In this document: in pieces, positions 2,794 to 38,842 of the stretch
Position numbering within the stretch: position 1 is the stretch's first letter
How the letters are laid out: each line of letters starts with the position of its first letter
Origin: an uncultured Bacteroidales bacterium
GTDB taxonomy: Bacteria > Bacteroidota > Bacteroidia > Bacteroidales > Paludibacteraceae
Direction of reading: 5' to 3'
Length of the DNA stretch: 49,400 bases
NCBI GenBank assembly: GCA_903830915.1
Contig: CAIKVR010000315.1
Coordinates: 1-49,400 of the forward strand
The notes under the pieces: generated by a model
The model's database searches: none
Told to the model about the DNA's origin: nothing
The model's input: the letters and a program-made list of their open reading frames with translations, nothing else
Translations under genes and position numbers: made by a program

Positions 2794-2800
2794 AAATTAA

Positions 2801-3019: not shown

Positions 3020-3101
3020 AACATGTTCAACACTTAGTTCGTGTTTTTTTCATGTCAATAATCCAACAACAAAAACATCAATGTCCGTTGTAGATTGTTT
3101 G

Positions 3102-3305
3102 CTAAAGTAAACCATGTTCTTTGCAACGTTCAATAATTATCTTGGTTGTTTCTTTTTCGAATTCTTCAGCAGTCATATATCCTTCAGGCACAATGCCGGT
3201 TGCAGCAGGATTTTCAAATTCAACACCTTTGCGATAGCGGCGCAAATTATTAATTATTTTCTTTCCGTTTCGGGTGTTATCGTCAATTTTTACAGTGTGT
3301 ATCAT
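3102..3305 (-). CDS. small antitoxin-like protein
   Basis: A 67-residue protein beginning MIHTVKIDDNTRNGKK. The short beta-strand start followed by a helical, charged tail with MTAEEFEKE resembles the small antitoxin-like proteins that precede RelE/ParE toxins in Bacteroidetes. It is transcribed before the toxin-like ORF; the gap to the toxin's likely ATG at 3053 is 48 bases. In a working pair it would bind and neutralise the toxin and repress its own promoter. Family assignment rests on position and shape rather than a diagnostic motif. Confidence 0.5.
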   Translation of the reverse strand: MIHTVKIDDNTRNGKKIINNLRRYRKGVEFENPAATGIVPEGYMTAEEFEKETTKIIIERCKEHGLL

Positions 3306-3456
3306 ACTGTTATGTGTTGTTTTTTGTTGGTTGCAAATATTGATACTTTGATTGAAAATGCTTTGAAAATTTATAATTTATTTGATGTTTTTTTTCTTTC
3401 GCTGATATAATCTCTCATTTCATTGATTTGTATATGGATGGTAATAATAAATAACC

Positions 3457-3464
3457 TAAATTTG
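3457..3464 (+). promoter_or_regulatory. Bacteroidetes -7 element (TAAATTTG)
   Basis: TAAATTTG fits TAnnTTTG and lies 35 bases before the ATG at 3499. It probably starts the long operon 3499-14251. No -33 element at ideal spacing was seen. Confidence 0.45.
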
Positions 3465-3498
3465 AACAAATTGATGATAACATTTAAACTGGAATTTT

Positions 3499-7574: not shown

Positions 7575-7579
7575 ACACA

Positions 7580-7610
7580 GCCCCCTAAATCCCCCAAAGG
7601 GGGACTTTAA
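7580..7610. repeat. Bacteroidetes G/C-rich intergenic repeat
   Basis: A C-run/G-run element (CCCCCTAAATCCCCC then AAAGGGGGACTTTAA) starts just after the stop codon at 7574. It is the same type as the arms of the 14305-14394 element, differing mainly in run length. It can form a hairpin (CCCCC-AAA-GGGGG) and may attenuate transcription between the two arylsulfotransferase genes. Confidence 0.7.
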
Positions 7611-7648
7611 GACCTCATCTAATAATTTAAAATTAAAAATGTATTATT

Positions 7649-9376: not shown

Positions 9377-9396
9377 TATTTTTAGTCAAATAAATT

Positions 9397-11064: not shown

Positions 11065-12119
11065 TGAACGTACCTGTGAAATCGAAACTATATTTGCAGG
11101 GTCGGAATTTCGGATTTTACATCATGGCATTTGTATTTCTCATTTTATTTCTGTTGCCGGTACTCTTCACTAGGGTTAATGGCGAAATAAGTTGGATACA
11201 TGTAATGAAAATCTGGAAGGATCAGGCCTTACTTTTCGTTGTATTCGGGTTGAACCACTGGCTGATTGCTCCAAAACTTATGCTTCGCGGTAAATACGGA
11301 CTTTATATGCTTTGTATTGCAGGTATTATTGCACTATCCTCATTTTCATATTATTACTACGATAATATTTTCACCTTACCGAAAGTAAAAACCGAAAATA
11401 CCAAATCAAACAAGCCAACTCCCATTCCACCCTATGCTCATTTATTGATGTATTCGTTATTAATCGTTGGGGTTGATTCGGGTTTGATGTTTTCCAAAAA
11501 ATGGTATGAAAATGAAGAAAAACAGTATATTCTTGAAAAACAGAATTCAGAGATGCAACTCGAAATGCTTCGATATCAGGTAAGTCCGCATTTTTTGATG
11601 AATACACTGAATAATATTTATGCATTAATTGACCTCGATTCATATAAGGCGAAGGAAGCAGTAATGAAACTTTCGAAATTAATGCGCTATATGCTTTACG
11701 AAAATGAGAGTGGAAAGGTGTTGATAAGTAAAGAGTTTGAGTTTGTGAGGAGTTATATTGACTTGATGAAACTCCGTTTCGAAAATGATATGATCATTGA
11801 ACTTAACTTACCGGAACAATACGATGAGTTTGAAATACCGCCTTTGTTGTTTATTTCATATATCGAAAATGCTTTCAAACATGGTGGAGGGAATGACCAT
11901 AAGAGTAAGATTGTAATTTCGTTTATTTTTAATGATAAGATGCTGTTATTCAATTGTTTTAATCTGAAATCGACTATAAAAACAAACGTAGATAAAGGTG
12001 GATTCGGACTTGAGAACAGTAGAAACAGACTGAATATTTTTTATGGCGAGAGATATTCATTGTCAATAAATTCCCCTGAAAAGTATTTTGATGTTACCCT
12101 TAAAATCCCAATGACATGA
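11064..12119 (+). CDS. LytS/YehU-type sensor histidine kinase
   Basis: 351 residues. Four hydrophobic segments in the first ~150 residues anchor it in the inner membrane; there is no large periplasmic sensor domain, so it probably senses through its membrane part. The His_kinase domain starts at SPHFLMNTLNN with the phosphoacceptor candidate H176. The GHKL-type ATPase domain shows the N box (ENAFKHGG, near 270) and a G box (GGFGLENSRNRL). The ORF overlaps the phosphoesterase before it by 1 base and the regulator after it by 4 bases (ATGA). It should phosphorylate the LytTR regulator encoded next and so control this operon or related ones. Confidence 0.9.
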   Translation: MNVPVKSKLYLQGRNFGFYIMAFVFLILFLLPVLFTRVNGEISWIHVMKIWKDQALLFVVFGLNHWLIAPKLMLRGKYGLYMLCIAGIIALSSFSYYYYDNIFTLPKVKTENTKSNKPTPIPPYAHLLMYSLLIVGVDSGLMFSKKWYENEEKQYILEKQNSEMQLEMLRYQVSPHFLMNTLNNIYALIDLDSYKAKEAVMKLSKLMRYMLYENESGKVLISKEFEFVRSYIDLMKLRFENDMIIELNLPEQYDEFEIPPLLFISYIENAFKHGGGNDHKSKIVISFIFNDKMLLFNCFNLKSTIKTNVDKGGFGLENSRNRLNIFYGERYSLSINSPEKYFDVTLKIPMT

Positions 12120-12835
12120 GTATTAAATGTGTGATTGTTGACGATGAACCGCTTGCACTGAGTGTGCTCGAACGCTATATAAGCCAGACTCCATTTCTGG
12201 AATTGGTAGAGAAATTCACAAATCCCGTGAAAGCGTATAAGTATCTGAATGACAATGAAATTGATTTGCTGTTTGTGGATATTCAAATGCCCGATCTGAC
12301 CGGATTTGAGCTGGTGAACAACTTAAAAAAGAAGCCGGTTTTTATTTTTACAACCGCTTATAGCGAATATGCGCTAGAAGGATTCAAAGCTGATGCGTTG
12401 GATTATTTACTGAAACCAATTGATTTTCCTGAATTTACAAAAGCAGTGAACAAGGCTAAAGAATGGCTTGAAATCCGGAACGAAAAAAACTCGCTGGTTG
12501 AAGCCGGCAAAGATTTTCTATTTATTAAGTCGGAGTATAAAATTATCCGTATCAATTTCAACGAAATAACATATATTCAGGGAATGAGCGAATATGTAAA
12601 GATTCATTTGTCTAATCGTAAACCAATCATGTCGCTGATAAGTCTGAAATCACTCGAAGCACAATTGCCCGCTTCTATGTTCATGCGCGTTCATAAATCT
12701 TACATTGTTAACCTTCAGAAAGTAAACACGATAGAACGAAACGAGATTGTTTACGATGATGGGACTATCATTCCGGTAAGTCAGCAATACAAAACTCAGT
12801 TTCAGGAATTTGTTGATAATAACTTTTTGCTTTGA
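12116..12835 (+). CDS. LytTR-family response regulator
   Basis: 239 residues. The receiver domain (1-120) has the acidic pocket VDDE and phosphoacceptor D55 in FVDIQMP, with K at LLKPID. The LytTR DNA-binding domain covers about 138-237 (FIKSEYKIIRI, YIQGMSEYVKI, FMRVHKSYIVN). It overlaps the kinase gene by four bases, which marks a translationally coupled pair. LytTR proteins bind pairs of direct repeats in front of target genes; I did not find a convincing pair by eye in this operon. Confidence 0.92.
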   Translation: MSIKCVIVDDEPLALSVLERYISQTPFLELVEKFTNPVKAYKYLNDNEIDLLFVDIQMPDLTGFELVNNLKKKPVFIFTTAYSEYALEGFKADALDYLLKPIDFPEFTKAVNKAKEWLEIRNEKNSLVEAGKDFLFIKSEYKIIRINFNEITYIQGMSEYVKIHLSNRKPIMSLISLKSLEAQLPASMFMRVHKSYIVNLQKVNTIERNEIVYDDGTIIPVSQQYKTQFQEFVDNNFLL

Positions 12836-12841
12836 AAGTTT

Positions 12842-14251
12842 ATGAGAAAGAAGTTCTTCCTTTTGTTGTTATTATGCTTGAGTATAACTGGTTTTGCTCA
12901 GCGAAAAGACAGACAACCCGACCAACGTCCTGAATCCACCTTCAAAACCGTTGTTCCGGCTCACGATTACGATTTAATTCTTTGTCGTCCAACCAATCAG
13001 TCAATTACTGTATCGGTGCTTTCTTATAAAAATGCAGAGGCTTATCTGGTTTATTATCAGAAAGCCAATAAACAGAACAAAACAGACATCTTGAAGCTGA
13101 ATGCAAACAAACCGATTGAGAGTAAACTTACAGGATTAAAAGTGGATTGTCAGTACGATTATTATGTCTTGTATAAAGCTGAAGGCGAAGAGGGCTTTAC
13201 TCAATCAGCAATCCACAGTTTTCATACCCAACGTACAGCTATTGATTCATTCTGTTTCACACTGACCGCCGACTCGCATTTGGATGAAAACACCGATACA
13301 CAGGTTTATACCAACACTTTACTCAATGCTGCCACTGATTCTTCCGATTTTCATATCGATTTGGGCGATACCTTTATGACAGATAAATACCGCAGGAACT
13401 ATAAAGCTGCATTCAATCAGTATATTGCTCAACGATATTATTTTGGACTATTGCAGGTGCCACTCTTTTTGGTATTGGGCAATCATGATGGTGAAGCCGG
13501 TCAACGACTCAACGGACTTGATGATAATATGACAGTTTGGTCCAATCAAAACCGAAAAACATTTTTCCCTAACCCCGAACCCGACAGCTTTTACAGCGGA
13601 AATAATCAGCCGGAAAACTACAGCGGTTTGCCGCAGGATTATTATTCGTGGACGTGGGGAAACGCGCTTTTCGTTGTGCTCGATCCGTTTTGGTTCACAC
13701 CCCGCAGCGGAAACGACAATCCATGGGACAGAACGCTCGGCAAAACGCAATACGACTGGTTGAAAACCACGTTGGCAAATTCAAAAGCTACATTCAAATT
13801 TATATTTATCCACAATTTGGTGGGTGGCGTCGACCATAAAGGAAAAGGGCGTGGCGGCTCGGAAGTGGCTCATCTTTACGAATGGGGCGGACAGAATCCC
13901 GACGGAACCAACGGGTTTAAAACGCAACGTCCGGAATGGGAAATGCCGATTCATGAGCTTTTAAAGAAATATCACGTAAACGTGGTTTTTCATGGACACG
14001 ACCATTTATTTGCTAAACAAGAATTGGACGGCATCGTTTATCAATGCCTTTCACAGCCCGGAGCCAGGGAGCAGGGTAATACCCGCAATGTCGAAGAATA
14101 TGGATATGTGAACGGAAAAATACTCAATGGACCCGGATATATGCGGGTGAACGTAAAGAGAGACAATGCGACTTTTGAGTTTGTTGGAACAAACCTGAAA
14201 GATACTTCTGAGAATAAGAAAGTTGTTTATCAATATACAATCAAAAAATAA
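12842..14251 (+). CDS. secreted calcineurin-like phosphoesterase without sorting domain
   Basis: 469 residues: signal peptide ending GFAQ (about 1-20), fibronectin-like domain (about 35-130) and metallophosphoesterase (about 135-440). Ligand motifs are D144-x-H146, G175-D176, G213-N214-H215-D216, IHN and G385-H386-D387-H388; the usual GNHE is GNHD here. Unlike its paralogs at 325 and 9397 it stops soon after the catalytic domain and has no T9SS C-terminal domain, so it is probably periplasmic. It follows the response regulator after 6 bases and ends the operon, with a 30-bp inverted repeat downstream. Confidence 0.85.
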   Translation: MRKKFFLLLLLCLSITGFAQRKDRQPDQRPESTFKTVVPAHDYDLILCRPTNQSITVSVLSYKNAEAYLVYYQKANKQNKTDILKLNANKPIESKLTGLKVDCQYDYYVLYKAEGEEGFTQSAIHSFHTQRTAIDSFCFTLTADSHLDENTDTQVYTNTLLNAATDSSDFHIDLGDTFMTDKYRRNYKAAFNQYIAQRYYFGLLQVPLFLVLGNHDGEAGQRLNGLDDNMTVWSNQNRKTFFPNPEPDSFYSGNNQPENYSGLPQDYYSWTWGNALFVVLDPFWFTPRSGNDNPWDRTLGKTQYDWLKTTLANSKATFKFIFIHNLVGGVDHKGKGRGGSEVAHLYEWGGQNPDGTNGFKTQRPEWEMPIHELLKKYHVNVVFHGHDHLFAKQELDGIVYQCLSQPGAREQGNTRNVEEYGYVNGKILNGPGYMRVNVKRDNATFEFVGTNLKDTSENKKVVYQYTIKK

Positions 14252-14304
14252 AACCTGTTTTCAACTTGATAGATAGGTAGTTGAGAATTGGATATGTATT
14301 TTTG

Positions 14305-14394
14305 AACCGCCCCTAAATCCCCTAAAGGGGACTTTAAGAGCATGTTGCGAGACGATACTAATCCAAGTCCCCTTTAGGGGATTTAGGGGCGGTT
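14305..14394. repeat. 30-bp perfect inverted repeat of the G/C-rich family, possible operon terminator
   Basis: The left arm 14305-14334 (AACCGCCCCTAAATCCCCTA and 10 more bases) is exactly the reverse complement of 14365-14394, with a 30-base loop. Each arm also contains its own CCCC-TAAA-GGGG hairpin. A short T-rich stretch follows the right arm. It may end transcription of the operon 3499-14251, or simply be an inverted pair of the repeat family seen at 7580. Confidence 0.8.
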
Positions 14395-14467
14395 GTTTTT
14401 AAGAGCAAAAAATGAAGTGGAAGGGGCAAAGCCCTATTATTAAACCAAAATCATAAAAACACACACC

Positions 14468-15676
14468 ATGAAACGAGTTATTTCATATTTGATTCTTACA
14501 GCAATGCTTGTTTTTAGTTCAACTACCTTTGCTCAAAACGAACCAAAGCAGAACAAGCAATATAACCTGGAACAAGCAACTTCCGAACGTGCTCAACTGC
14601 ATACGGTTGCTTTTAGTGGGTTGGCTTTTATGACCGGAAATTTTGGAGCTGACACTTTTTTTCCTCCGGGTAAAGTAGCTGATTTTTTTGGCTTTCAGTA
14701 TATGCGCGATAACGACAAAAACGACAAAGGGCATAACACCTATTTCCTTACTCGTATTGCCAACAATGTGATTGCTATACTGTCTCCTGAGCAACTTCAG
14801 AAACTAAAGGATTTGGCCAATACGCAAGCACCTGTTTACGATGCTTTCGCAATGAAGCGCATGGTGCTGATTAAAGCATTCCGTACCTGTCTCGAAACTG
14901 GAAAAGAACTTAATAAAGCAGAAATCATTAAATTTGGTGCAGACTTGTATGCATTGGATGCGGACTTGAGCTATAATCGTGCTATGGTTGTTGGTCATGT
15001 AATCAAAGCATTGAGTGCAGAACAAAAGGCAGCATTGGGCAAACTACAGTTTGATAATTCCAATTCGTGGCCTATATTACCGGAAAATCTGGATAAACGA
15101 AGTTTGTCGCACCGTGCCCACGTTGCCGTAATGACTTATGCCAGCGAACTTTTCAGTTGGTATGCCGGTTCGGTAGAAGCGGATGTGTATTTTTGCCCGG
15201 AGCGTCACGGAACGTATTTTGGTGGTTTTTACATGAAGGATTTCCCGGCTATGGGAAATCACGATTATTCCATTAGTACCGCTCTCACAGGCGATGCCGG
15301 ACGTGATTTTATTACTACGCTGAATGCCACTCAGGCTGAATCTTTGTACGAAACAATGCGGAAACAAGCACCGTTATTGAGCGAAATAGTGAAAATAAGA
15401 GAAGCAGTTTCTATTGAACTAAGAAAAGCCATGACCAACGAAAAACCGAATAAAGAAAAGGTATTTTCATTGATAAAACGTTATGGTGAATTGGACGTGG
15501 AAATGTCTTATTATGAAGCAAATTCTTTCTCAGTGATTTACAAAACACTTACTGAGATCCAAAAACAGAAACTGATTCAGATTCGTAATCAAAATGTTTT
15601 ACCTAAAGGTGTGTATCTATATTCTGACCCGGTTGATTTTACTAGTGCATTAGGGGATAGCTATCTGTTGAAATGA
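14468..15676 (+). CDS. secreted protein of unknown function with an internal duplication
   Basis: 402 residues; signal peptide about 1-22 (ending TFAQ). I do not recognise a family. The mature part contains two related halves, about 40-195 and 215-385. The segment TFFPPGKVADFFGFQYMRD matches VYFCPERHGTYFGGFYMKD, each is followed by an LSPEQLQKL or LNATQAESL helix start, and each half ends with SYNRAMVVGHVIKAL or SYYEANSFSVIYKTL. Both helical parts resemble the LTxxQ-like style of small periplasmic stress proteins, but this is weak. It has no T9SS domain. It lies downstream of the phosphoesterase operon, after a long inverted repeat, so it may be its own unit. Confidence 0.7.
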   Translation: MKRVISYLILTAMLVFSSTTFAQNEPKQNKQYNLEQATSERAQLHTVAFSGLAFMTGNFGADTFFPPGKVADFFGFQYMRDNDKNDKGHNTYFLTRIANNVIAILSPEQLQKLKDLANTQAPVYDAFAMKRMVLIKAFRTCLETGKELNKAEIIKFGADLYALDADLSYNRAMVVGHVIKALSAEQKAALGKLQFDNSNSWPILPENLDKRSLSHRAHVAVMTYASELFSWYAGSVEADVYFCPERHGTYFGGFYMKDFPAMGNHDYSISTALTGDAGRDFITTLNATQAESLYETMRKQAPLLSEIVKIREAVSIELRKAMTNEKPNKEKVFSLIKRYGELDVEMSYYEANSFSVIYKTLTEIQKQKLIQIRNQNVLPKGVYLYSDPVDFTSALGDSYLLK

Positions 15677-15794
15677 CTTAAGTTTTTTTATGTGCTAGGC
15701 CGAAACAATAACTTGAACTGTTGATTTTTCAAAACTATAATTGTTAATAACATGCCAAAATTTCACCTTGATTTGTAACAACTCACCGATATGT

Positions 15795-15825
15795 TTTGAT
15801 ATTTAAGAAAATATGATTTTCTTTG
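15795..15825 (+). promoter_or_regulatory. promoter of sppA (TTTG-N19-TTTCTTTG)
   Basis: TTTG at 15795-15798 is followed 19 bases later by TTTCTTTG at 15818-15825, a one-mismatch copy of TAnnTTTG. The spacing is the Bacteroidetes optimum. It lies 46 bases before the sppA ATG. Confidence 0.5.
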
Positions 15826-26626: not shown

Positions 26627-26658
26627 AAGCCCTTTTCCAATTGGAAAAGGGCTTTTTT
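26627..26658 (+). terminator. rho-independent terminator after rpsT
   Basis: AAGCCCTTTTCCAA and TTGGAAAAGGGCTT form a 14-bp perfect palindrome (26627-26654), followed by more T. Confidence 0.9.
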
Positions 26659-26775: not shown

Positions 26776-27297
26776 TTATATTTTTTCTATAATCACACAT
26801 TCTGAAAGTTTCACATGTTTGTTTTCTTCACCCAGCATTTGGAATGATTCTTCATCGTAATCGAAGCCTGTACATTTTCCTTTAATGGTAATGATATCGC
26901 CTTCTTTGAACTTTGCAACAAGTGACTTGTTTCTAGCCACTGAGGCACTATCCAACTGACAATTAATCCCAACTGCTTTTCCCACTAAATCGATGGTAAC
27001 ATTACCAGAATCTTCGATTTTTTTGGAGGCAATTTTACCCGTAGTTTCAATGATTTTAGGGCCATTCTCTCCAATAAAATTAGGTATTGCACTGGTTTTC
27101 CCAGCTTTAACCCAATCTGCTTCTACTTGTTTAAGAAGATCTTCAGCGTTCAATGTTATTTCAGGTTTTAAATCCGCAGGTGTAGTTCTGTTGTTTTGGC
27201 AATATACAAATGCATAATATACATATCCACCTCCACCTATTGCTCCGGTAAGTGCAAGGAGCAATATCACGTAAATAATTTTCTTTTTAGTTGTCAT
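26776..27297 (-). CDS. membrane-anchored OB-fold protein (tRNA_anti-like)
   Basis: 173 residues. One N-terminal membrane helix (about 7-30, with a GAIGGGGY stretch), then a soluble part with NAEDLLKQVEAD and an OB-fold region (about 85-173: IIETTGKIASKK, GDIITIKGKCTGFDYD, VKLSECVI) resembling the tRNA_anti-like family. Such domains in cell-envelope proteins need not bind nucleic acid. It is the last gene of the minus-strand cytochrome locus, 14 bases after yceI, and likely faces the periplasm. Function unknown. Confidence 0.7.
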   Translation of the reverse strand: MTTKKKIIYVILLLALTGAIGGGGYVYYAFVYCQNNRTTPADLKPEITLNAEDLLKQVEADWVKAGKTSAIPNFIGENGPKIIETTGKIASKKIEDSGNVTIDLVGKAVGINCQLDSASVARNKSLVAKFKEGDIITIKGKCTGFDYDEESFQMLGEENKHVKLSECVIIEKI

Positions 27298-27311
27298 ATT
27301 TCTAATTATTA

Positions 27312-27872
27312 CTATTTGGTGTAGGGAGTGTACGTAAAGTCTACATATACTTCAATGTCTTTCTGAATTTTATCTTTCACAATTGCAGGAATAACAATTG
27401 CAAATTGCTCAGCAGTAACAGTAAAAGCGGCTGTAGCTTTAATTTTGCCATCTTTTACTACTGCAGTTCCTTCTTTTTTGATAGTAACGGATTTACCATG
27501 CATTTCCAAAATTCCTTCAACCATACGTTTGTATGTTCCATTCTTGCTGAAATCAATTGATGCAATATCAATTACTTTGGCTTTAAACTTTACTTTAGGG
27601 TATTTTGCAGATTCCACATAGTTTTCGTTAAAATGCTCCTCTACCAATTGATTGTCAAATTTAAAGTCTCTTAAGAAAGCACTTACAATCATATCACCTG
27701 TTTTTACGTCCAGAATACTTGTAATCTGATGGTTATGTGCTTCAATTTCTTTTACTGGAGTTTTGGAGTGAATCCAAACATGACCGGTTTTCGTAATAAA
27801 TTTATCCTGAGCTTTTAAGTTGCTTATCAAAGCTAACGATAACACTAATGTTACTAATACATACTTTTTCAT
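27312..27872 (-). CDS. YceI family periplasmic lipid-binding protein
   Basis: 186 residues with a signal peptide (about 1-21). The body is a YceI-type lipocalin-like barrel: FITKTGHVWIHSKTP, ITSILDVKTGDMIVSAFLRDFKFDN, MVEGILEMHGKSVTI. YceI proteins bind isoprenoids such as polyprenyl chains or quinone-like molecules and are often encoded with cytochromes. Here it follows the DUF5777 gene in the cytochrome locus, which suggests a quinone- or isoprenoid-related role in electron transfer; this is inference. Confidence 0.85.
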   Translation of the reverse strand: MKKYVLVTLVLSLALISNLKAQDKFITKTGHVWIHSKTPVKEIEAHNHQITSILDVKTGDMIVSAFLRDFKFDNQLVEEHFNENYVESAKYPKVKFKAKVIDIASIDFSKNGTYKRMVEGILEMHGKSVTIKKEGTAVVKDGKIKATAAFTVTAEQFAIVIPAIVKDKIQKDIEVYVDFTYTPYTK

Positions 27873-27907
27873 TTTGTTATTTTTTTAATTGTTTATATTT
27901 TTGAAAA

Positions 27908-28819
27908 TTATAATCCTACCTGTTTTTCTATTTCTGTACTTTTGTCTTTTCTTGGAATTAATGGGAAAACACGTGAAATTTTAAATCCTAGACGAACATC
28001 TCCTTTCATCCAGTTGTTAGTTGTTCCTGTTATGAAACCACGTTCAGTGTTCCAGACCGCATTGGTAACAAACAATTGAAATACATGTCCACCGGTTTCA
28101 ATATCAAATCCTACAGCTAATGGATTATAGGTTGAGGCTGAATGTGCTGTTAACGAGTGATAGTATTCAACATTTAAACTTACGCGGCTATTAAGTTTGT
28201 ATCTACCACCAATACCAATAGCAAAAACATTGTTTTGATCAGCAGGGTCAACTACAAGGTTTCTATGAACAAAAGTTGGCATTAACTGTAACGAAAGATT
28301 TTCAGTAAACTTTCTAGCTATTAAAATTTGGCTGGTATATGAAAATCTGTTTGCATATAAACTATCAGCCGTTGTAACCGGATTTGATCCTTTCATATCA
28401 GCACCCAAGAATAAGGAAACTGAAACCGGCATATTAATTTTTCCTGTTGATTGTCTCAAAGCAGAAAATTTCAAAAATCCATCTACTGTTTTTTCCATAG
28501 CAGCTCGTCCAAGACCAACCATTAACCAATCATTAATACCATAATCCAATGTGATATGAACATTACTTTGATCTAATCCAAATGCATTATAAGAGTCAGT
28601 TATCAGTCCAAATCTGTGGTCAATTCTAAAATCAAGTTGACCAGTTTGCATTCTTTCTATTGATTGACCATTTATTAACCGCGTGGCTTTAAATGTACCA
28701 GCTGTATATTCTGTTCTAGCTTCAGTTTCGGCATCAAGTAATTTATCTAAGTCCTGTGACATTAATTTCGTGCTACTTAGTAGTACAATTACTACCGTAA
28801 AAAATAATTTTGTTTTCAT
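27908..28819 (-). CDS. DUF5777-type outer-membrane beta-barrel protein
   Basis: 303 residues with a signal peptide (about 1-21, ending LMSQ). The sequence is a series of short amphipathic beta-strands (GQLDFRIDHRFG, VHITLDYGINDWLMVGLGR, GKINMPVSVSLFLGADM, VSLNVEYYHSL) and matches the DUF5777 family of Bacteroidetes, predicted to be an outer-membrane barrel. In this phylum such genes are commonly found with YceI and cytochrome genes. It may be a porin or a scaffold for the neighbouring lipoproteins. Confidence 0.75.
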   Translation of the reverse strand: MKTKLFFTVVIVLLSSTKLMSQDLDKLLDAETEARTEYTAGTFKATRLINGQSIERMQTGQLDFRIDHRFGLITDSYNAFGLDQSNVHITLDYGINDWLMVGLGRAAMEKTVDGFLKFSALRQSTGKINMPVSVSLFLGADMKGSNPVTTADSLYANRFSYTSQILIARKFTENLSLQLMPTFVHRNLVVDPADQNNVFAIGIGGRYKLNSRVSLNVEYYHSLTAHSASTYNPLAVGFDIETGGHVFQLFVTNAVWNTERGFITGTTNNWMKGDVRLGFKISRVFPLIPRKDKSTEIEKQVGL

Positions 28820-28858
28820 ATTGTTTTTGTTATATTTTTTTACTTTTACGATTATCTA

Positions 28859-29278
28859 TTATTTTTCTGGAGCACCTGCCTCAAGCCATTTATTGATAAT
28901 TGACAATTCAGTTGCAGTAAGCAAAATTGCTTGTGGTTTCATTAATTTTAGATCAGTCCCATTCTGATTAACAGCTAAATATAGATTACTCTTTTTGTAA
29001 TCAGCCAAGGTAATTGTTGTGACTGGAGTTGGTGTTTGTTTTACCCAAATACTCATCACATCTGTGTAAGACGTTGGATCACATGCGATTTTTACCCCAC
29101 CGGCTAATAATTTTACATTGGCATCGTGACATTGAGCACAATTATTTTTTCCCGCTTTAAAGATATTCGAAACTTCTTTGTACGTAAATGTTGTTACAAC
29201 TGGTTCGCGGTTGTTCTCGCACGAACTAAGGAAAGCCACAAAGGCAATTAATAATAATGAATTAAATTTTCTTTTCAT
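28859..29278 (-). CDS. monoheme cytochrome c lipoprotein
   Basis: 139 residues. Lipoprotein signal peptide with C20 in the lipobox FLSSC. One heme c attachment motif C47-A-Q-C50-H51; a Met in LKLMKP toward the C-terminus is a candidate sixth ligand. The ending ATELSIINKWLEAGAPEK is typical of the small cytochrome c-like domains in Bacteroidetes. It should carry electrons at a membrane surface. It is encoded after CcsA and ResB, which would attach its heme. Confidence 0.85.
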   Translation of the reverse strand: MKRKFNSLLLIAFVAFLSSCENNREPVVTTFTYKEVSNIFKAGKNNCAQCHDANVKLLAGGVKIACDPTSYTDVMSIWVKQTPTPVTTITLADYKKSNLYLAVNQNGTDLKLMKPQAILLTATELSIINKWLEAGAPEK

Positions 29279-29330
29279 TTTGATGATAAATTTTTAAAAT
29301 TAATATTATGTTATTTGTTTGTATTTTAGA

Positions 29331-30128
29331 TTATTGACCTGAATATACATGAACACTATTTTGGGCTGAAGGCAAATAATTGATTCCAAACCAGCATATT
29401 AGTAAAATGAGAAACGAAAATGCCAAAATCCACAACGGTCCAATTACTTTGTAGGGATGATTGAATCTATAATGTAAATACACTAAATAGCCAAGCCATG
29501 TAATAAATGCCCAGGTTTCCTTTGGATCCCATGTCCAATAATTTCCCCATGCCTGTTTTGCCCACAATGCCCCAAAGATCAAACCCATAGTAATGAAAGC
29601 GTAACCCAAATAAACCAGATTGTCGGCCAATTGAATTATTGATTTGTCTAATTTGGTTTTGTAATTTTGAAACAATCCTTTGATTGCAACCAATGCTGCT
29701 CCGGCTAAAAAAGCATAAGCAATAATGTAAACAATAACATGCGGTATAAACCAAACGCTTTGTAGTGCAGGCATTAATGTTTTATTATGCATTTCAGGTT
29801 TTAAATAATTCAGCAGCAAAAATAAAATGGTCATCAATAAGCAATAGACCAAAAACCAACGATACTGCCATTTTATATAAGTCACATAACCAATCAACGA
29901 CAAAAACAAAGCATACCAAAGCCGGGTTTCACCCAGAGTTTTAAAAGGAGGTCGACCCAGCGAAATCCATAAAATAGTGACAAATGATATAATCAACAAA
30001 ATCCCCAGTGAAACGGATATATGAATCAGACTTTTTGTGTTTTTATTGGTTTTCAGCAACGACAAAAGTGCAACCACAAAGAAAAGGGTTGAAGCAAAGA
30101 AAAAAACCGAATAATTAGACCATTCCAT
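29331..30128 (-). CDS. ccsA: cytochrome c maturation protein CcsA (heme handling)
   Basis: 265 residues, about eight membrane segments. The WWD heme-binding signature is clear (WGNYWTWDPKETWAF), with flanking histidines in HVIVYIIAY and FNHPYKV. CcsA and ResB form the system II synthetase that exports heme and ligates it to CXXCH motifs. It follows resB by three bases. Confidence 0.9.
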   Translation of the reverse strand: MEWSNYSVFFFASTLFFVVALLSLLKTNKNTKSLIHISVSLGILLIISFVTILWISLGRPPFKTLGETRLWYALFLSLIGYVTYIKWQYRWFLVYCLLMTILFLLLNYLKPEMHNKTLMPALQSVWFIPHVIVYIIAYAFLAGAALVAIKGLFQNYKTKLDKSIIQLADNLVYLGYAFITMGLIFGALWAKQAWGNYWTWDPKETWAFITWLGYLVYLHYRFNHPYKVIGPLWILAFSFLILLICWFGINYLPSAQNSVHVYSGQ

Positions 30129-30131
30129 AGT

Positions 30132-31352
30132 TTATTTTTTTCCTCTCCAAAACACAAATAATGAACCAACTATCATCATAAATAAACCCATATAAACAAC
30201 CGGTTGCCAAGGGTCATTTACTAATTCAATAATTGTACTATCCGACCATTTAGCTTTGTCTCTATTAAAATCCACAATGTACATTTGCCAGCCAAGGTAA
30301 GTGTATGGATTGTTTATCGAAATTTGTTTTGAGAATGTGTGTTTTCCATTATTAATATAGAGCAAAACTTTATATTCTTTATCAGCAGGAGGTAGCATCA
30401 CAAGCATGTGCTCTGAATCTAAACTCAAATACATTTTTGTAATCAGGTTACCTCCACAACTTAACCAGCCGGTAAGTTGTTTGTTAGTTTGCACATTTCG
30501 GGCACTTACGTATGCTGCAGGAGCAGTACCAATTGAATCAAAAGCAACGATTTTAGTCCCGGTTAATTCGGCACTTGGTAAATATTGAAGAACTTTTATG
30601 TTCCAGTTTTTTAAAATAATGGAATTGTTGGACTTTGCTTCCAACGTGTTTTTACCCGATTTCACACTAATCATAGTAGTTGTACTATCCATGATGGTAA
30701 TTCTCGGGTTATATGTTTCTAAACTAAATTCTTTTTGTTTCAACGAAAAAGGTAAAATATTCATTTCTCCTTTTTCACCGAAAGCGATGTTAGCGTATTT
30801 TGCTGTTGATACGCTTATTCTAAGGTGAGTCTGGTCAATAGAGCCAAAGTTTGCAGCCACAATAGTTACCCAAAGTCCTAAATGATTCAGGATAAACCAA
30901 AAATTACTTTTTTTCAGCGGGTAAAGTCGTTTAATTGTGGCAAATCCTAAACTAAAAAGTAAGAGAAGTAAACTAAAAGCATAAATCCAGGAACTGGCTA
31001 TGGTATTTAGTCCAAGTTTTGAGATGAAAGTATTTGTTGATGTTCCCTGAGTTAATAAACCCATTATGAGTGTAACTACAGTAAAACCTACAATAGAACT
31101 TATTGCGGCTTTAGTTGAGGATAGCCAACTTACAATGGAAGAACCTCTGAATTTCCAATTTCCAATGATTATTAAGGAAATAATCAAAAATAAGACAACT
31201 ATATTCCGGGGAAAGATTAATTTTTCGAGATGAAGATTTCCAAAAACTACCTGAGTAATTATGCCAAAGCTAATTACTATTGCAACAATAAGAAAACTAA
31301 CTGAATAGCTTACTTCTTTGCTGTTTTGATTGGTTTTTGAAGAAAGTGACAT
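30132..31352 (-). CDS. resB: cytochrome c maturation protein ResB/Ccs1
   Basis: 406 residues. Four membrane segments (three near 15-150, one at about 150-170) followed by a large periplasmic domain and a final helix (PVVYMGLFMMIVGSLFVF). The DPWQPVVYMGLFMMIVG end is typical of ResB. It partners with CcsA, three bases downstream, in system II cytochrome c synthesis. On the minus strand it begins 26 bases after the terminator at 31378-31412, so it is probably reached by read-through from the lipoprotein gene or by its own promoter. Confidence 0.88.
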   Translation of the reverse strand: MSLSSKTNQNSKEVSYSVSFLIVAIVISFGIITQVVFGNLHLEKLIFPRNIVVLFLIISLIIIGNWKFRGSSIVSWLSSTKAAISSIVGFTVVTLIMGLLTQGTSTNTFISKLGLNTIASSWIYAFSLLLLLFSLGFATIKRLYPLKKSNFWFILNHLGLWVTIVAANFGSIDQTHLRISVSTAKYANIAFGEKGEMNILPFSLKQKEFSLETYNPRITIMDSTTTMISVKSGKNTLEAKSNNSIILKNWNIKVLQYLPSAELTGTKIVAFDSIGTAPAAYVSARNVQTNKQLTGWLSCGGNLITKMYLSLDSEHMLVMLPPADKEYKVLLYINNGKHTFSKQISINNPYTYLGWQMYIVDFNRDKAKWSDSTIIELVNDPWQPVVYMGLFMMIVGSLFVFWRGKK

Positions 31353-31377
31353 GTGAAATCAGTAAAGTAATAAATGG

Positions 31378-31412
31378 AAAAATAGGGTTGAAATTTCATC
31401 AACCCTATTTTT
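31378..31412. terminator. bidirectional terminator-like hairpin between the heme lipoprotein gene and resB
   Basis: AAAAATAGGGTTGA (31378-31391), a 7-base loop, TCAACCCTATTTTT (31399-31412): a perfect 14-bp stem with A and T tails on both sides. On the minus strand it should end, at least partly, transcripts of the gene at 31434-32669 and so lower expression of resB onward. Confidence 0.85.
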
Positions 31413-31433
31413 TCTTGAATTTTTTAAAACAAT

Positions 31434-32669
31434 TTATTTAGCAGCTACAGTAGCAAAGCTAAGTTTCAAGTTAGTTTTGATTAAGTGCTGATTATTAGCA
31501 TTATCAAATGTAGCAAAACCAAACATGTATGTTTTAGCGATGTCAAATTGAGCATCATAAGTCTTGTCAGTTGTTGCTAATTTTCTGATTACCTTAATAA
31601 CCCAACCTTTACCACTAACGTAAGTTGAATAAGAGGTAATATCACCATTTGATTCAACCAATGGGCCACCATTCAATGTATAAGTGATTTTTTTAGAACC
31701 AAGGAATGAATAATCAGTTGTAGTAGTTGGATCAATTTTAGTAGCATCTTCCAATGTCAAAACTCCGTTTGCATCAACAGCTGTAACCAATTTTGCTGCT
31801 TTACTAGTTACATCAGATTGTTTAATGAATGCAACACCTGTCATTACATACTTAGGAACTGCAATAGCTTTTGTTCCTCCAGTTGGAATAAGGTTTTGAG
31901 TATTTGAAGTTCCTAAAGCATAGGCTGTGGAAACAGCATCTGCACCAACACGACCACCTTTTACTGCTTTAGTAGTTACAACCACAGAACCGGCAGATGT
32001 TGCTACAGAGTCAGTTGTAATGTATGCATCTGCAGTTTGGTTATTTGCTTGAGCTCCTGCACTTCTCCAAAACCATACATCGGCAGTAAACCCAGTCATA
32101 ACATCACTAGCATCTTTAAATTTTGCTGTATAATGGTTTCCGTATTTAGGAGTTACTCCATAGTGACAGGTCGACAAACAAGTTGATTTATTCCAAGCTG
32201 CATTATCAGTAATTGGGAAAAGCATTGCAAATTGATCTTGACCAAATTGACCTACTTTAGTTGTGTCAGTAATTGAAGCAGGTCGAGTCCAAAGTTTAGT
32301 TTTTGCATCAAAATACCAAGCCCTGTTATCAGTGCTTTGTGTTAAGTCAGCCAATTCTACTAAGAAGTAGATATTGTTAGCATCGTATTGTGAACGAACC
32401 GTGAAATTTTCGGTTTTTCCCAGAAAAAGAGTGTAGATTTTCCCGAATAAAGTAGTGTCTGGAACTTCTACAGTGTTAGTAGATAATTTGTTACAGTTAG
32501 CCCAAGATGCATCAATGCTAGCATCAGCAGATATAGCTCCGGTAGCTAATAATGAAATAAGATCAGTTGAACTGGTACTTGGTTCAGCTACAACTGGATC
32601 AGTTTTACAACTTTGCATGGTGCCCATTAATGCAACCGCTGCCAATAGAATTAGATTTTTTGTTTTCAT
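31434..32669 (-). CDS. heme-binding lipoprotein related to ethylbenzene dehydrogenase gamma subunit
   Basis: 411 residues. Lipoprotein-type signal peptide with the Cys at about 21 (MQSC). The body resembles the EB_dh (ethylbenzene dehydrogenase-related) heme-binding beta fold, with IDASWANCNKL at the start, IYFLVELAD and GQDQFAMLFP. A C164-LST-C168-H169 motif has three residues between the cysteines, a CX3CH spacing rather than CX2CH. In DMSO-reductase-type enzymes such subunits bind heme b and pass electrons; here no molybdenum subunit is nearby, so it may act as a stand-alone electron carrier. It is the first structural gene after the Rrf2 regulator. Confidence 0.75.
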   Translation of the reverse strand: MKTKNLILLAAVALMGTMQSCKTDPVVAEPSTSSTDLISLLATGAISADASIDASWANCNKLSTNTVEVPDTTLFGKIYTLFLGKTENFTVRSQYDANNIYFLVELADLTQSTDNRAWYFDAKTKLWTRPASITDTTKVGQFGQDQFAMLFPITDNAAWNKSTCLSTCHYGVTPKYGNHYTAKFKDASDVMTGFTADVWFWRSAGAQANNQTADAYITTDSVATSAGSVVVTTKAVKGGRVGADAVSTAYALGTSNTQNLIPTGGTKAIAVPKYVMTGVAFIKQSDVTSKAAKLVTAVDANGVLTLEDATKIDPTTTTDYSFLGSKKITYTLNGGPLVESNGDITSYSTYVSGKGWVIKVIRKLATTDKTYDAQFDIAKTYMFGFATFDNANNQHLIKTNLKLSFATVAAK

Positions 32670-32782
32670 AAAAGTTTTTTTTTGAATAAATAGTTATTTT
32701 ACTAATTTGTTGATTTATATTATGTTTACACTATAATATCAGATTTTTTTAAAGTTTTGTAATCCCTAAATATTGACTGTTT

Positions 32783-32799
32783 GCTATCGCATTAGTAGT
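32783..32799. promoter_or_regulatory. predicted Rrf2 operator, distal copy (imperfect)
   Basis: GCTATC-GCATT-AGTAGT, an imperfect version of the 32831 dyad. It lies 114 bases upstream of the heme lipoprotein start, between that gene and the regulator. Confidence 0.5.
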
Positions 32800-32830
32800 A
32801 TTCTGAATTAAAAAAATAGATTTTAATCAC

Positions 32831-32851
32831 ATACTATCGCATTGATAGTAT
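32831..32851. promoter_or_regulatory. predicted Rrf2 operator, perfect dyad
   Basis: ATACTATC-GCATT-GATAGTAT: two perfect 8-base arms around a 5-base centre. It shares its centre and arm sequence with the copies at 32783 and 33366. Confidence 0.65.
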
Positions 32852-32866
32852 TTTGAGAGAAAAAAA

Positions 32867-33319
32867 TTAATTCGCTAAAGTTAGTTGGCTTTGATCCAAA
32901 TCTTTACATTCGTAATAAGTTTCTTCCAAAATTTGAGCTAAATTTTTCTTCGATAAAATAGCTTCCAAATCTACTTTAAATTCGTTCCAATAATTTCTTC
33001 CTTTGCAATCGTGCAATGATCTGTCGCAAAAACTCAAATTATTAATACATTCAATCACTACTATTTGCTCAAATGCAGTATAAATGTCTAACATTGAAAT
33101 TTCTTCAGCAGCACGCGTGAGTCTGTATCCACTTCCTTTACCTTTTGAGTTAGTTATTAGACCTTTTAGTTTTAATGAAGCGATGATTGGATCAAGATAT
33201 TTGAGAGAAATTTTTTGATTCTTTGCAATGTCTTTTTGTAACATTCCATTCGAACTGGTTGAATTAGCAATTTCAATCATTGTCCTTAAACCGTACCTTA
33301 TTTTTGAGTTAACTCTCAT
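32867..33319 (-). CDS. Rrf2 family transcriptional regulator with Fe-S-type cysteines
   Basis: 150 residues from the ATG at 33319. An upstream in-frame TTG at 33343 overlaps the -7 element (33341-33348), so it is not the start. The winged helix-turn-helix covers about 1-70 (KIRYGLRTMIEIA, KYLDPIIASLKLKGLI, GKGSGYRL). Cysteines C91, C98 and C105 match the positions of the Fe-S ligands in IscR and NsrR, though spacing is C-X6-C-X6-C. It may sense iron-sulfur status, nitric oxide or redox state. Three similar dyads, one just upstream of its own promoter and two before the next gene, suggest autoregulation and control of the cytochrome locus. Confidence 0.88.
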   Translation of the reverse strand: MRVNSKIRYGLRTMIEIANSTSSNGMLQKDIAKNQKISLKYLDPIIASLKLKGLITNSKGKGSGYRLTRAAEEISMLDIYTAFEQIVVIECINNLSFCDRSLHDCKGRNYWNEFKVDLEAILSKKNLAQILEETYYECKDLDQSQLTLAN

Positions 33320-33365: not shown

Positions 33366-33384
33366 TGCTATTACATTGATAGCA
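33366..33384. promoter_or_regulatory. predicted Rrf2 operator upstream of its own promoter
   Basis: TGCTATT-ACATT-GATAGCA, 7-base arms with one mismatch, covering the position expected for the -33 element of the Rrf2 promoter. This suggests repression of the regulator's own gene. Confidence 0.6.
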
Positions 33385-33867: not shown

Positions 33868-34842
33868 ATGGGCGTTATTGACGAAATTAAAAGACCGATA
33901 CTAACTGATTTACAATTGTTTGCTGCTACATTTTCGGAGGCATTGAACACAGATAATCAGTTGTTGTTGAGTGTGAATGAATATACCCATCAAAAAAGTG
34001 GAAAGCAATTACGTCCGATACTAACTATTCTGTCAGCAAAAATTTGTGGTGAGGTTAATAAAAATACAATTTTAGGAGCTCAATCACTGGAACTTTTACA
34101 TACCGCGAGTTTAATTCACGATGATGTTATTGACGATACGCTTGAACGACGTGGAAACCCATCGGTAAATGCTCAGTGGACGAATAAAATTGCTGTTTTT
34201 TCAGGAGATTATTTGTTTTCAAAATCGTTGAGTTGCGCTACACAAACAAATAATATAGCTATTATGAAGGTTGTTTCAACAATTGGTCATCAACTAACTG
34301 ATGGTGAATTATTACAATTGGTGAATTCAAAACTATCCAAAACTTCAGAAGAAAATTATTATACTATTATTAAAAAGAAAACGGCTCAATTATTTTCATC
34401 GTGTACCGAGGTTGGAGGTTTATCCACAAATGCTACAGAAATTCAACTTGAATCACTTCGCAGGTATGGTGAATATTTGGGAATGAGCTTTCAAATTAAG
34501 GATGATATTTTTGATTATTATGATAGTATTCAGATTGGGAAACCTACTGGAAATGACTTACGAGATGGAAAAGTAACGTTACCTCTGATACATGCATTGC
34601 AACATTCTTCAACTTCTGAGAAAAAGAAAATTACCTCACTCATTGATAATAAAGATTTTTCGACTGATAATATACTGACAATAATGCAATTCGCTCGCAA
34701 AAATGGAGGAATAGATTATTCTATAAAAGTAATGGAAGCTTTTAAAGATAAAGCCATTGAAGAGCTTAGACACTTTCCGGATAGTGATGCTAAGAAATCG
34801 CTTGTACTTTGCGCTGAATATGCGGCTTCTCGCGAAATTTAA
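33868..34842 (+). CDS. polyprenyl (trans-isoprenyl) diphosphate synthase, paralog 1
   Basis: 324 residues. First aspartate-rich motif in LIHDDVIDD, second in FQIKDDIFDY, and the loop GKPTGNDLRDGKVTLP that binds the allylic diphosphate in this family. It adds isopentenyl units to an allylic primer, making chains for quinones or undecaprenyl carriers. Close paralog of the gene at 37898, with polA on the opposite strand between them. All catalytic motifs are intact, so this copy is the likely main enzyme. Confidence 0.88.
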   Translation: MGVIDEIKRPILTDLQLFAATFSEALNTDNQLLLSVNEYTHQKSGKQLRPILTILSAKICGEVNKNTILGAQSLELLHTASLIHDDVIDDTLERRGNPSVNAQWTNKIAVFSGDYLFSKSLSCATQTNNIAIMKVVSTIGHQLTDGELLQLVNSKLSKTSEENYYTIIKKKTAQLFSSCTEVGGLSTNATEIQLESLRRYGEYLGMSFQIKDDIFDYYDSIQIGKPTGNDLRDGKVTLPLIHALQHSSTSEKKKITSLIDNKDFSTDNILTIMQFARKNGGIDYSIKVMEAFKDKAIEELRHFPDSDAKKSLVLCAEYAASREI

Positions 34843-37897: not shown

Positions 37898-38842
37898 ATG
37901 AGTACCATTGATAAAGTCAGAAATTCAATTGATGAAGAAATGCAACTGTTTGGAAAAACCTTTGCTGAATCATTATACACCGAAAACCCGTTGTTGCTGA
38001 GTGTCAATGATTATGTGCTTCAGAAAAGCGGAAAACAATTCAGACCAATGGTTACTATATTGTCTGCGAAATTAAGTGGAATAGTAAATCAGTCAACTAT
38101 TGATGCTGCACTTTCGCTCGAATTTTTACATTCAGCCAGTTTAATTCATGATGACGTAGTTGATGATGTACATGAACATCGTGGAAAACCATCGGTCAAT
38201 GCACGCTGGACTAATAAGATAGCTATTCTTTCGGGTGATTATATTTTGTCGAAATCGCTGGTTAGTGCAAATCGTACAGATAGTCTTCCAATTCTGAAAG
38301 CTATTGCTCAAATAGGTATGCAATTATCAGATGGTGAGCTTCTTAAACTTGAAAATACCCGGTTTTCCGAGAATTCAGAATCAAATTACTTCAACATTAT
38401 CCGCAAGAAGACAGCATTCCTTTTTGCAACCTGTGCCGAAGTGGGTGGTTTGTCGGTTGGTGCTGATGAAGAAACGCTTCAGCATTTGCGAAACTTTGGT
38501 GAATACTTAGGAATATGTTTCCAGTTAAAAGATGATATTATTGATTATCGGGCTGATATAAGTGAGGGTAAAGTTACACTTCCACTTATTTATGCTGTAA
38601 TGAATTCGACCGGTGCTGCGAAAGATTTAGTGCTTAATTGGCTGATTACCAAAGATTATACTTCCGATAATATAGAAAAAATAACTCAGTTTGCCATTCA
38701 GAATGGTGGTGTGGATTATGCTCTTGCCCAAATGGAAGCATTTAAAAACAAAGCCATTGAAGAACTCAAGGGTTTTGCTGACAGCGACATCAAACAATCG
38801 CTGATAATGTGTGCGGAATATGCGGCAAACAGGGAATATTAA
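37898..38842 (+). CDS. polyprenyl diphosphate synthase, paralog 2, with a loop deletion
   Basis: 314 residues, strongly similar to the gene at 33868 along its length. LIHDDVVDD and FQLKDDIIDY keep both aspartate motifs. Where paralog 1 has sixteen residues between DY and GKVTLP (including GKPTGNDLR), this one has only six, so the conserved GKP-x-G-x-DL loop is missing. That loop helps bind diphosphate, so activity or product length may differ; heteromeric use with paralog 1 is possible. It shares an identical promoter block with paralog 1. Confidence 0.85.
   Translation: MSTIDKVRNSIDEEMQLFGKTFAESLYTENPLLLSVNDYVLQKSGKQFRPMVTILSAKLSGIVNQSTIDAALSLEFLHSASLIHDDVVDDVHEHRGKPSVNARWTNKIAILSGDYILSKSLVSANRTDSLPILKAIAQIGMQLSDGELLKLENTRFSENSESNYFNIIRKKTAFLFATCAEVGGLSVGADEETLQHLRNFGEYLGICFQLKDDIIDYRADISEGKVTLPLIYAVMNSTGAAKDLVLNWLITKDYTSDNIEKITQFAIQNGGVDYALAQMEAFKNKAIEELKGFADSDIKQSLIMCAEYAANREY

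Follow-up and report, generated by a model that had tools for sequence, protein, structure and literature searches.

What is the role of a gene cluster that places predicted electron carriers, a heme lyase, and a predicted outer-membrane barrel behind one local regulator? This question is raised by positions 26776 to 33319 of a 49,400-nucleotide stretch of DNA (the window) from an uncultured Paludibacteraceae bacterium (Bacteroidales). The window is part of a draft genome (G000) of 4.74 Mb in 436 contigs that is 87% complete. A first-pass annotation had described there a compact, co-directional module of eight genes with its own heme attachment genes and no terminal oxidoreductase, and it had hesitated between extracellular or outer-membrane electron transfer and protection against nitric oxide (NO) or nitrite. 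Our analysis tips the balance, modestly, toward an electron-transfer unit of the cell envelope, encoded by an operon that regulates itself and supplies its own heme lyase.

Results

Gene order and conservation of the module

All eight open reading frames (ORFs) were found as annotated, on the minus strand and in the order Rrf2, EB_dh, ResB, CcsA, monoheme lipoprotein, DUF5777, YceI, and OB-fold protein (Table 1). Seven of the eight products pass the curated Pfam cut-off for a family (tRNA_anti-like, YceI, DUF5777, Cytochrom_C_asm, ResB, EB_dh, and Rrf2). The rrf2 gene lies upstream of a seven-gene block, EB_dh-ResB-CcsA-cytochrome-DUF5777-YceI-OB, in which the spacers measure 3 to 81 bp, and is separated from EB_dh by approximately 200 bp. 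The right flank of the module is a divergent polyprenyl synthetase gene; polA is itself flanked by two such genes, at 33868-34842 and 37898-38842 of the window.

The annotation had named in advance a comparison of gene neighborhoods as the place where its proposal could fail. In G023, a genome of the same genus, all eight genes occur in identical order, apart from an IS1595-type transposase gene inserted on the same strand between the cytochrome and DUF5777 genes (locus L033, 6925-7848). Six of the eight genes are visible in G043, spread over two contigs. One contig begins inside CcsA and continues with the cytochrome, DUF5777, YceI, and OB genes (five genes in order); the other ends within the rrf2 ortholog and carries an operator-like site there. 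The two contig ends presumably belong together, with EB_dh and ResB lost in the assembly gap. A divergent polyprenyl synthetase gene of similar sequence adjoins rrf2 in both genomes, and the left flanks of the module differ between genomes.

Between the window and G023, the OB, YceI, DUF5777, CcsA, and Rrf2 proteins share 77 to 86% amino acid identity, EB_dh 53%, ResB 50%, and the small cytochrome 39%. ResB and the two heme carriers are thus the fastest-evolving products when the two complete modules are compared. EB_dh was detected in 2 of 149 neighborhood genomes and DUF5777 in 37 of them (36 above the family cut-off), the window genome included in both counts; EB_dh occurs in 36/395 genomes of a class-wide sample. 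A search of viral contigs for relatives found none.

A stand-alone EB_dh protein with a predicted covalent heme

The EB_dh protein was modeled with a mean pLDDT of 72 and a pTM of 0.74. The model matches EbdC (2ivf_C; Z 19.1, rmsd 2.6, 202 residues aligned) and NXR-C (7b04_C; Z 17.9), followed by CBM9 domains at Z 12 to 13. The excerpted text of PMC8840923 gives Met and Lys as the ligands of heme b in the EbDH gamma subunit, and that of PMC8387239 describes a b-type heme in NXR-C.

We compared 36 homologs of at least 250 amino acids (41 rows minus 5 duplicates), fragments below that length having been dropped (a C-terminal piece in L128, L163, and L164). Thirty-one are stand-alone proteins, including that of the window, and five are molybdenum (Mo)-linked, with genes for a molybdopterin protein and a 4Fe-4S protein next to them; the molybdopterin protein of L111 and L114 is short, lies at a contig end, and matches under the family cut-off. 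All 31 stand-alone proteins, and none of the five Mo-linked ones, have a CX3CH motif and, distant from it, a His (His395 in the window protein). The CX3CH sits in an insertion just before the position of the M-G motif of the Mo-linked proteins, EbdC, and NXR-C. The columns of candidate heme-ligating Met and Lys residues were taken from the alignment rather than from a structure, in a region where stand-alone and Mo-linked sequences align only remotely. The Met of the M-G motif is absent from the window protein, which has Y180/T181 where the Mo-linked rows read MM and R202 where they read K; 5/31 stand-alone rows have a Met in the second Met column, and the nearby Lys column is Lys in 5/5 Mo-linked and 13/31 stand-alone rows. 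A C-terminal R-L...D motif remains alignable with NXR-C.

According to the excerpted text of PMC10734462, CX3CH counts among heme motifs. Because CX3CH and the His occur in all stand-alone rows, a role of the EB_dh protein in heme binding is indicated, and their presence on an EbdC/NXR-C fold predicts a covalently attached heme. The alignment suggests that in stand-alone proteins the Met/Lys heme b site was replaced by a covalent, probably bis-His heme.

A gamma subunit of a molybdoenzyme was considered for the window protein and ruled out, given the CX3CH/His395 split from the Mo-linked group and the lack of genes for a molybdopterin alpha or Fe-S beta subunit in the module; the control loci L118 to L120 have such genes. 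An NCBIfam scan (E up to 1) listed no match for the window protein, TIGR03477 included, with HMMER filters that drop most matches with E above ~0.1. The Mo-linked control L118 matched TIGR03477 at 4.5e-38, still under the model's cut-off. The module protein thus shares Pfam family and beta-sandwich fold with EbdC and NXR-C but differs in being a stand-alone lipoprotein with a CX3CH insertion, His395, and no M-G Met, and strictly speaking it falls outside the DMSO-reductase gamma family.

The small cytochrome and the barrel

The monoheme lipoprotein has a CAQCH motif and no Pfam match above the cut-off; in a 12-row alignment, C20 (lipobox), C47, C50, and H51 are invariant. Each module carrier thus has a single CXXCH or CX3CH. 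The DUF5777 protein was modeled as a 12-stranded barrel (mean pLDDT 73, pTM 0.71) that matches the small channels KdgM (Z 18.8, rmsd 1.9), FapF, and COG4313. MtrB and other wide barrels were absent from the VIA-align list, which on its own excludes nothing, and the DUF5777 profile had no match among PDB sequences at E 1. The MtrB barrel has 26 strands. Like Mtr-type porin-cytochrome conduits, the module pairs an outer-membrane barrel gene with heme lipoprotein genes, but an Mtr-type conduit is unsupported because the barrel has 12 strands, and is on its model too narrow, and each carrier has one predicted heme.

The resemblance of the barrel to KdgM, FapF, and COG4313 channels and that of EB_dh to CBM9 (Z 12.6 at best) might suggest uptake-linked oxidation, the barrel admitting a small substrate that a DOMON/CBM9-like EB_dh protein would bind or oxidize, with electrons passed to cytochrome c oxidase. 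We regard this as improbable, since EbdC and NXR-C fit EB_dh better, the CX3CH and His of all stand-alone rows point to heme, and the block has no gene for a catalytic partner.

PADLOC returned no match for the EB_dh, DUF5777, and OB proteins. In the 5.39 million open-access papers searched, DUF5777 is not named, and among the matches listed there the module is not described.

Class-wide neighborhoods link EB_dh, small cytochromes, and DUF5777

Of the EB_dh matches in the class-wide sample, 20 fetched regions were examined. A DUF5777 gene lies within 6 kb of 24/31 stand-alone EB_dh genes (window counted) and of none of the five Mo-linked ones. NrfD is encoded within 6 kb of 17/31 stand-alone genes, 16 of which also have DUF5777. 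A frequent order is EB_dh, CX4CH/CXXCH monoheme protein, DUF5777, cytochrome c, 4Fe-4S protein, NrfD, and a last gene whose product shows no more than weak similarity to Ig-like domains; the families were confirmed by Pfam in L126 and assigned elsewhere with profiles built in this analysis. The window shares with these clusters the CX3CH-type EB_dh, the small heme protein, and the DUF5777 order. In contrast, it adds ResB-CcsA between EB_dh and the cytochrome, YceI/OB downstream, and Rrf2, and lacks the 4Fe-4S and NrfD genes.

For DUF5777 itself, 44 regions were fetched and 43 counted, as the ORF picker gave no DUF5777 ORF in L067. A gene matching the small-cytochrome profile lies within 4.5 kb of 37/43 DUF5777 genes; YceI was found near 19, OB near 16, and a protein with at least five CXXCH near 13. 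YceI and such multiheme proteins are mutually exclusive (0/19 versus 13/24, P = 1e-4). Loci of the order Bacteroidales that contain the four downstream genes of the window (cytochrome, DUF5777, YceI, and OB) in varying order occur in other genomes, and several encode larger di- or triheme proteins where the window has EB_dh. ResB/CcsA occurs near DUF5777 elsewhere only in L033 and L039. In other loci a six-heme protein precedes DUF5777 in place of EB_dh, L113 has both kinds of lipoprotein, and in L162 and L163 the EB_dh type and the YceI-OB type lie side by side. The window joins the EB_dh slot of one locus type to the YceI-OB tail of another.

The slot shared by EB_dh and six-heme lipoproteins upstream of cytochrome-DUF5777 would be expected if the module performed full extracellular electron transfer to minerals, humics, or partner cells, with EB_dh replacing a multiheme outer-membrane cytochrome. 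L045, the one multiheme-type locus checked with Pfam, adds to this picture with cytochrome b561-type and NapC/NirT-type genes after its six-heme/DUF5777 genes, as do Crp/Fnr-type regulators that flank ten multiheme-type loci. The 12 strands and the single predicted heme per carrier speak against such a function, and surface exposure is only putative; we thus find it rather unlikely for the window. Of the functions entertained by the annotation, outer-membrane or envelope electron transfer gains from the DUF5777-cytochrome and EB_dh-cytochrome-DUF5777 clusters and from co-occurrence with NrfD, and extracellular transfer of the Mtr type does not.

The Crp/Fnr-type regulators lie near DUF5777 in ten multiheme-type loci (L041, L043, L045, L048, L052, L062, L070, L071, L072, and L074) and near EB_dh in L110, L116, L117, and L154; these are raw counts, with domains checked by Pfam for L110 and L116. 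Many have a CXXC or CX2CX4-5C near the N terminus. L041, L045, L113, and L137 encode six-CXXCH proteins whose N-terminal part includes a Gly-rich, collagen-like stretch, and in L041 and L045 the six-CXXCH protein is found beside DUF5777 and seven-heme proteins. The six-CXXCH/seven-heme loci probably represent a multiheme envelope electron-transfer system in Bacteroidota.

The YceI protein could also serve envelope protection, moving reduced quinone or another isoprenoid across the periplasm to quench lipid peroxyl radicals. The heme lipoproteins would then regenerate it or serve as peroxidase-like sinks, and Rrf2 would sense oxidative stress. YceI and OB are among the best conserved module products, and the excerpted text of PMC9113575 describes YceI lipocalins that carry ubiquinone-8 and a cytochrome b561-YceI system that counters lipid peroxidation. 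However, the module has YceI without a cytochrome b561 family match among its eight proteins, in contrast to LcoA-BcnA lipid peroxyl protection. YceI accompanies stand-alone EB_dh only in the window, L033, L162, and the fragment L163, and is found at 0/13 DUF5777 loci with multiheme neighbors. The carriers and barrel thus occur without YceI, and we consider a primarily protective role unlikely.

An additional ResB-CcsA heme lyase

By Pfam, ResB and CcsA of the module are the components of a System II synthase. CcsA reads WGNYWTWD, which we take to be akin to the WWD heme-handling motif of System II. G000 also has a separate open frame of 1156 codons with a CcsA domain, a putative fused CcsBA judging by its size, and frames of comparable length are common across the genus. 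The split pair of the module is an extra one, so that the module has heme attachment genes of its own in a strong sense.

Six other split ResB-CcsA pairs of the genus (L130 to L132 and L134 to L136) follow two four-CXXCH genes. Those of L130 are NrfH and NrfA by family, NrfA is also present in the genome of L132, and the remaining nrfHA assignments are by size and heme count. An origin of the module's ResB-CcsA and Rrf2 from an nrfHA operon of the genus was considered, but in an unrooted tree of concatenated ResB and CcsA (13 rows) the module pair groups with multiheme-linked pairs, apart from the nrfHA-linked ones (support 100/99), and this origin is unsupported. L039 entered that tree by CcsA alone, and L133, L141, L143, L146, and L147 were left out; it supersedes a CcsA-only tree with long branches and weak support. 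In alignments, the module Rrf2 is closer to the Rrf2 beside the multiheme DUF5777 locus L043 than to the nrfHA-linked ones. The module, which has no NrfA or NrfH gene, is thus not an nrf operon, and neither is it an Mtr conduit.

The excerpted text of PMC6976685 describes dedicated System II lyases for unusual heme motifs, NrfI and CcsA1 of Wolinella. The module likewise places an additional CcsA/ResB next to a cytochrome whose heme motif is out of the ordinary; here the motif is CX3CH, for which specificity of the lyase is only putative.

Multiheme genes were noted in two CcsA-containing regions. L144 (G000:C214) encodes 11-CXXCH and 20-CXXCH multiheme proteins (1914-4495) near the large CcsA-type frame. 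In L139, an eight-CXXCH protein (3561-5072) adjoins a split ResB-CcsA pair and has a weak hydrazine-dehydrogenase-family match, far under the cut-off. The L142, L145, L146, and L147 regions, fetched for CcsA, are outside the interpretation.

Rrf2, palindromes, and hairpins

The module regulator has an Rrf2 winged helix-turn-helix domain (Pfam and PDB relatives, IscR and CymR among them) and is 83% identical to its ortholog in G023 and 80% over the G043 fragment. Its three Cys residues, spaced CX6CX6C, are kept in both genomes and probably hold an Fe-S cluster. Palindromes of the form TRCTAYYWATGYRATAGYA occur once before rrf2 and twice in the rrf2-EB_dh spacer, in the window and G023 alike; the fit at these six sites is circular, because the pattern was drawn from them. 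Exact matches were found nowhere outside the module in the drafts of G000, G023, and G043, with ~0.02 expected per genome from base composition. One of two one-mismatch matches in G043 lies directly before the rrf2 ortholog; the other (G043:C110) falls close to the end of a contig, and no gene was seen beyond it. The one-mismatch sites outside the module in G000:C354 and G023:C262 are inside ORFs.

Allowing as many as two mismatches gave 11 matches in G000 versus 10 for a reversed-pattern control, 25 versus 16 in G023, and 10 versus 3 in G043, totals that count the module sites. We thus do not claim a genome-wide Rrf2 regulon, as sites in G000 are at the control level; given the excess in G023 and G043, a small regulon beyond the module may exist. 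Matches to sigma-70-type promoters were at chance level (35 versus 35.9 expected).

A 14-pair hairpin between EB_dh and ResB is present in both genomes with a partly different stem sequence; the G023 counterpart has a predicted energy of -17.4 kcal/mol (z -4.60). It may stabilize or end the EB_dh message, so that more carrier than lyase would be produced.

The respiratory setting

The annotation was right that the module has no terminal oxidoreductase, but G000 has a separate cluster with Pfam matches to 4Fe-4S, NrfD, cytochrome c, SCO, COX1, and COX2 (L206, G000:C279:12000-30000; 7297-15821), in which COX2 has a cytochrome c domain. Further genes there presumably encode COX3 and COX4 (before COX2) and protoheme transferase (last). 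Genes for 4Fe-4S, NrfD, and cytochrome c with COX1 nearby occur in G000, G023, G043, G005, G009, G042, and G004. Since G000 has one NrfD match, this cluster is possibly its quinol:cytochrome c link.

Across the 149 genomes, NrfD was found in 32/37 genomes with DUF5777 and in 24/112 without (P = 1.7e-12), a figure that includes weak DUF5777 matches and is inflated by shared ancestry; when six weak matches are removed, the counts are 28/31 versus 28/118. They are 24/27 versus 7/32 among the 59 genomes taken as other families of the order and 8/9 versus 17/39 among those taken as the genus (P = 0.024). COX1 accompanies DUF5777 in a similar comparison (29/37 versus 33/112).

These genomes also bear on the second function proposed by the annotation, NO or nitrite protection under an NsrR-like Rrf2. 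The Rrf2 family includes NsrR, the module regulator matches PRK11014 (3.1e-9; 37 bits, where the cut-off is 182), and it may respond to NO. However, a search for NrfA (PF02335) gave no match in the three module genomes G000, G023, and G043, drafts that are 82 to 97% complete, and was positive in G014 and G004. None of the eight proteins belongs to an NO reductase, Hcp, or flavodiiron family or is otherwise NO metabolizing, and in this genus the ResB-CcsA pairs found with nrfHA form a separate lineage, with Rrf2 proteins that look different in alignments. With nothing positive in its favor at this locus, we judge this proposal highly improbable.

Table 1 Features of the module and its surroundings (window coordinates)
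Feature	Coordinates	Strand	Evidence or remark
Rrf2-family regulator, CX6CX6C	32867..33319	-	Pfam Rrf2 3.3e-26; ATG 33319, alternative TTG 33343
Operator-like palindrome upstream of rrf2	33366..33384	-	Same place in G023; one mismatch in G043
Operator-like palindrome 1, rrf2-EB_dh spacer	32832..32850	-	8-bp perfect arms in ATACTATCAATGCGATAGTAT; G023 counterpart
Operator-like palindrome 2, rrf2-EB_dh spacer	32782..32800	-	G023 counterpart
EB_dh-fold lipoprotein, stand-alone	31434..32669	-	Pfam EB_dh 3.1e-22; fold match; conservation
CX3CH of EB_dh (CLSTCH, residues 164-169)	32163..32180	-	Conserved in stand-alone homologs
His395 codon of EB_dh, predicted distal heme ligand	31485..31487	-	Invariant in stand-alone homologs
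Hairpin between EB_dh and ResB genes	31378..31412	-	-17.8 kcal/mol, z -3.48; pattern scan
ResB, System II cytochrome c biogenesis	30132..31352	-	Pfam ResB 4.3e-7; ResB+CcsA tree
CcsA, unfused System II heme-handling subunit	29331..30128	-	Pfam 1.2e-32; TIGR03144 2.5e-42, under the model's cut-off
Small monoheme lipoprotein	28859..29278	-	CAQCH at 29126-29140
DUF5777 outer-membrane beta-barrel (predicted)	27908..28819	-	Pfam 1.4e-91; 12-strand model; KdgM Z 18.8
YceI-family protein, predicted polyisoprenoid/quinone binder	27312..27872	-	Pfam 7.3e-9; 86% identity to G023
OB-fold (tRNA_anti-like) protein	26776..27297	-	Pfam 3.3e-8; N-terminal hydrophobic stretch by eye; 81% identity to G023
Terminator-like hairpin 3' of OB gene	26627..26654	-	z -4.56 for a 91-base stretch

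Discussion

If the locus is an operon that controls itself and encodes an electron-transfer unit of the envelope, it could work as follows. Rrf2, probably bearing an Fe-S cluster on its three Cys residues, would repress rrf2 and the seven-gene block from the palindrome before rrf2 and the two between rrf2 and EB_dh. On its release, the two heme lipoproteins, the DUF5777 barrel, the YceI quinone/isoprenoid carrier, the OB-fold protein, and ResB-CcsA would be produced. The ResB-CcsA lyase would mature both carriers, EB_dh with one covalent heme via CX3CH/His395 and the CXXCH monoheme protein. The carriers would then connect the c-type pool of the periplasm with a partner located at the outer membrane or beyond it, so that the module would act as an accessory electron relay. 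In G000 the pool probably receives electrons through the products of the 4Fe-4S/NrfD/cytochrome c genes and loses them to cytochrome c oxidase.

Several observations weigh against this proposal. The region of the EB_dh heme pocket is modeled with low confidence (block means 40 to 53 for residues 161 to 190). For seven of the 31 stand-alone genes, DUF5777 is missing from the surrounding 6 kb; a contig end lies 90 to 2286 bases downstream in four of them, but not in the other three. The EB_dh search of G043 gave no match, for which we assume the assembly gap. The module has no gene for NrfD or another quinone-linked entry point, and the ResB-CcsA tree carries no root. Moreover, EB_dh homologs elsewhere have CX3CH and no adjoining ResB-CcsA, so that CX3CH needs no neighboring lyase. 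Finally, what supports the module's proposed function comes from sequences and models rather than experiment.

Beyond the window, we put forward, as a tentative idea that we hold short of even confidence, that Bacteroidia have a family of outer-membrane electron-transfer units composed of a DUF5777 barrel, a small heme lipoprotein, and an interchangeable large heme lipoprotein. One version of the latter would be a heme-b gamma fold turned c-type by inserting CX3CH and gaining a distal His, and the window version would have acquired its own Rrf2 switch and lyase. DUF5777 has a match in 37/149 genomes and is mostly encoded near a small cytochrome gene, although it went without mention in the literature searched. 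The local Rrf2 with its three palindromes would make a simple reporter for the inducing condition. If our reading of EB_dh is true, the electron-exit domain of a Mo enzyme became a free-standing covalent-heme lipoprotein with the same fold, and a function can be suggested for many EB_dh-like and DUF5777 genes of Bacteroidota.

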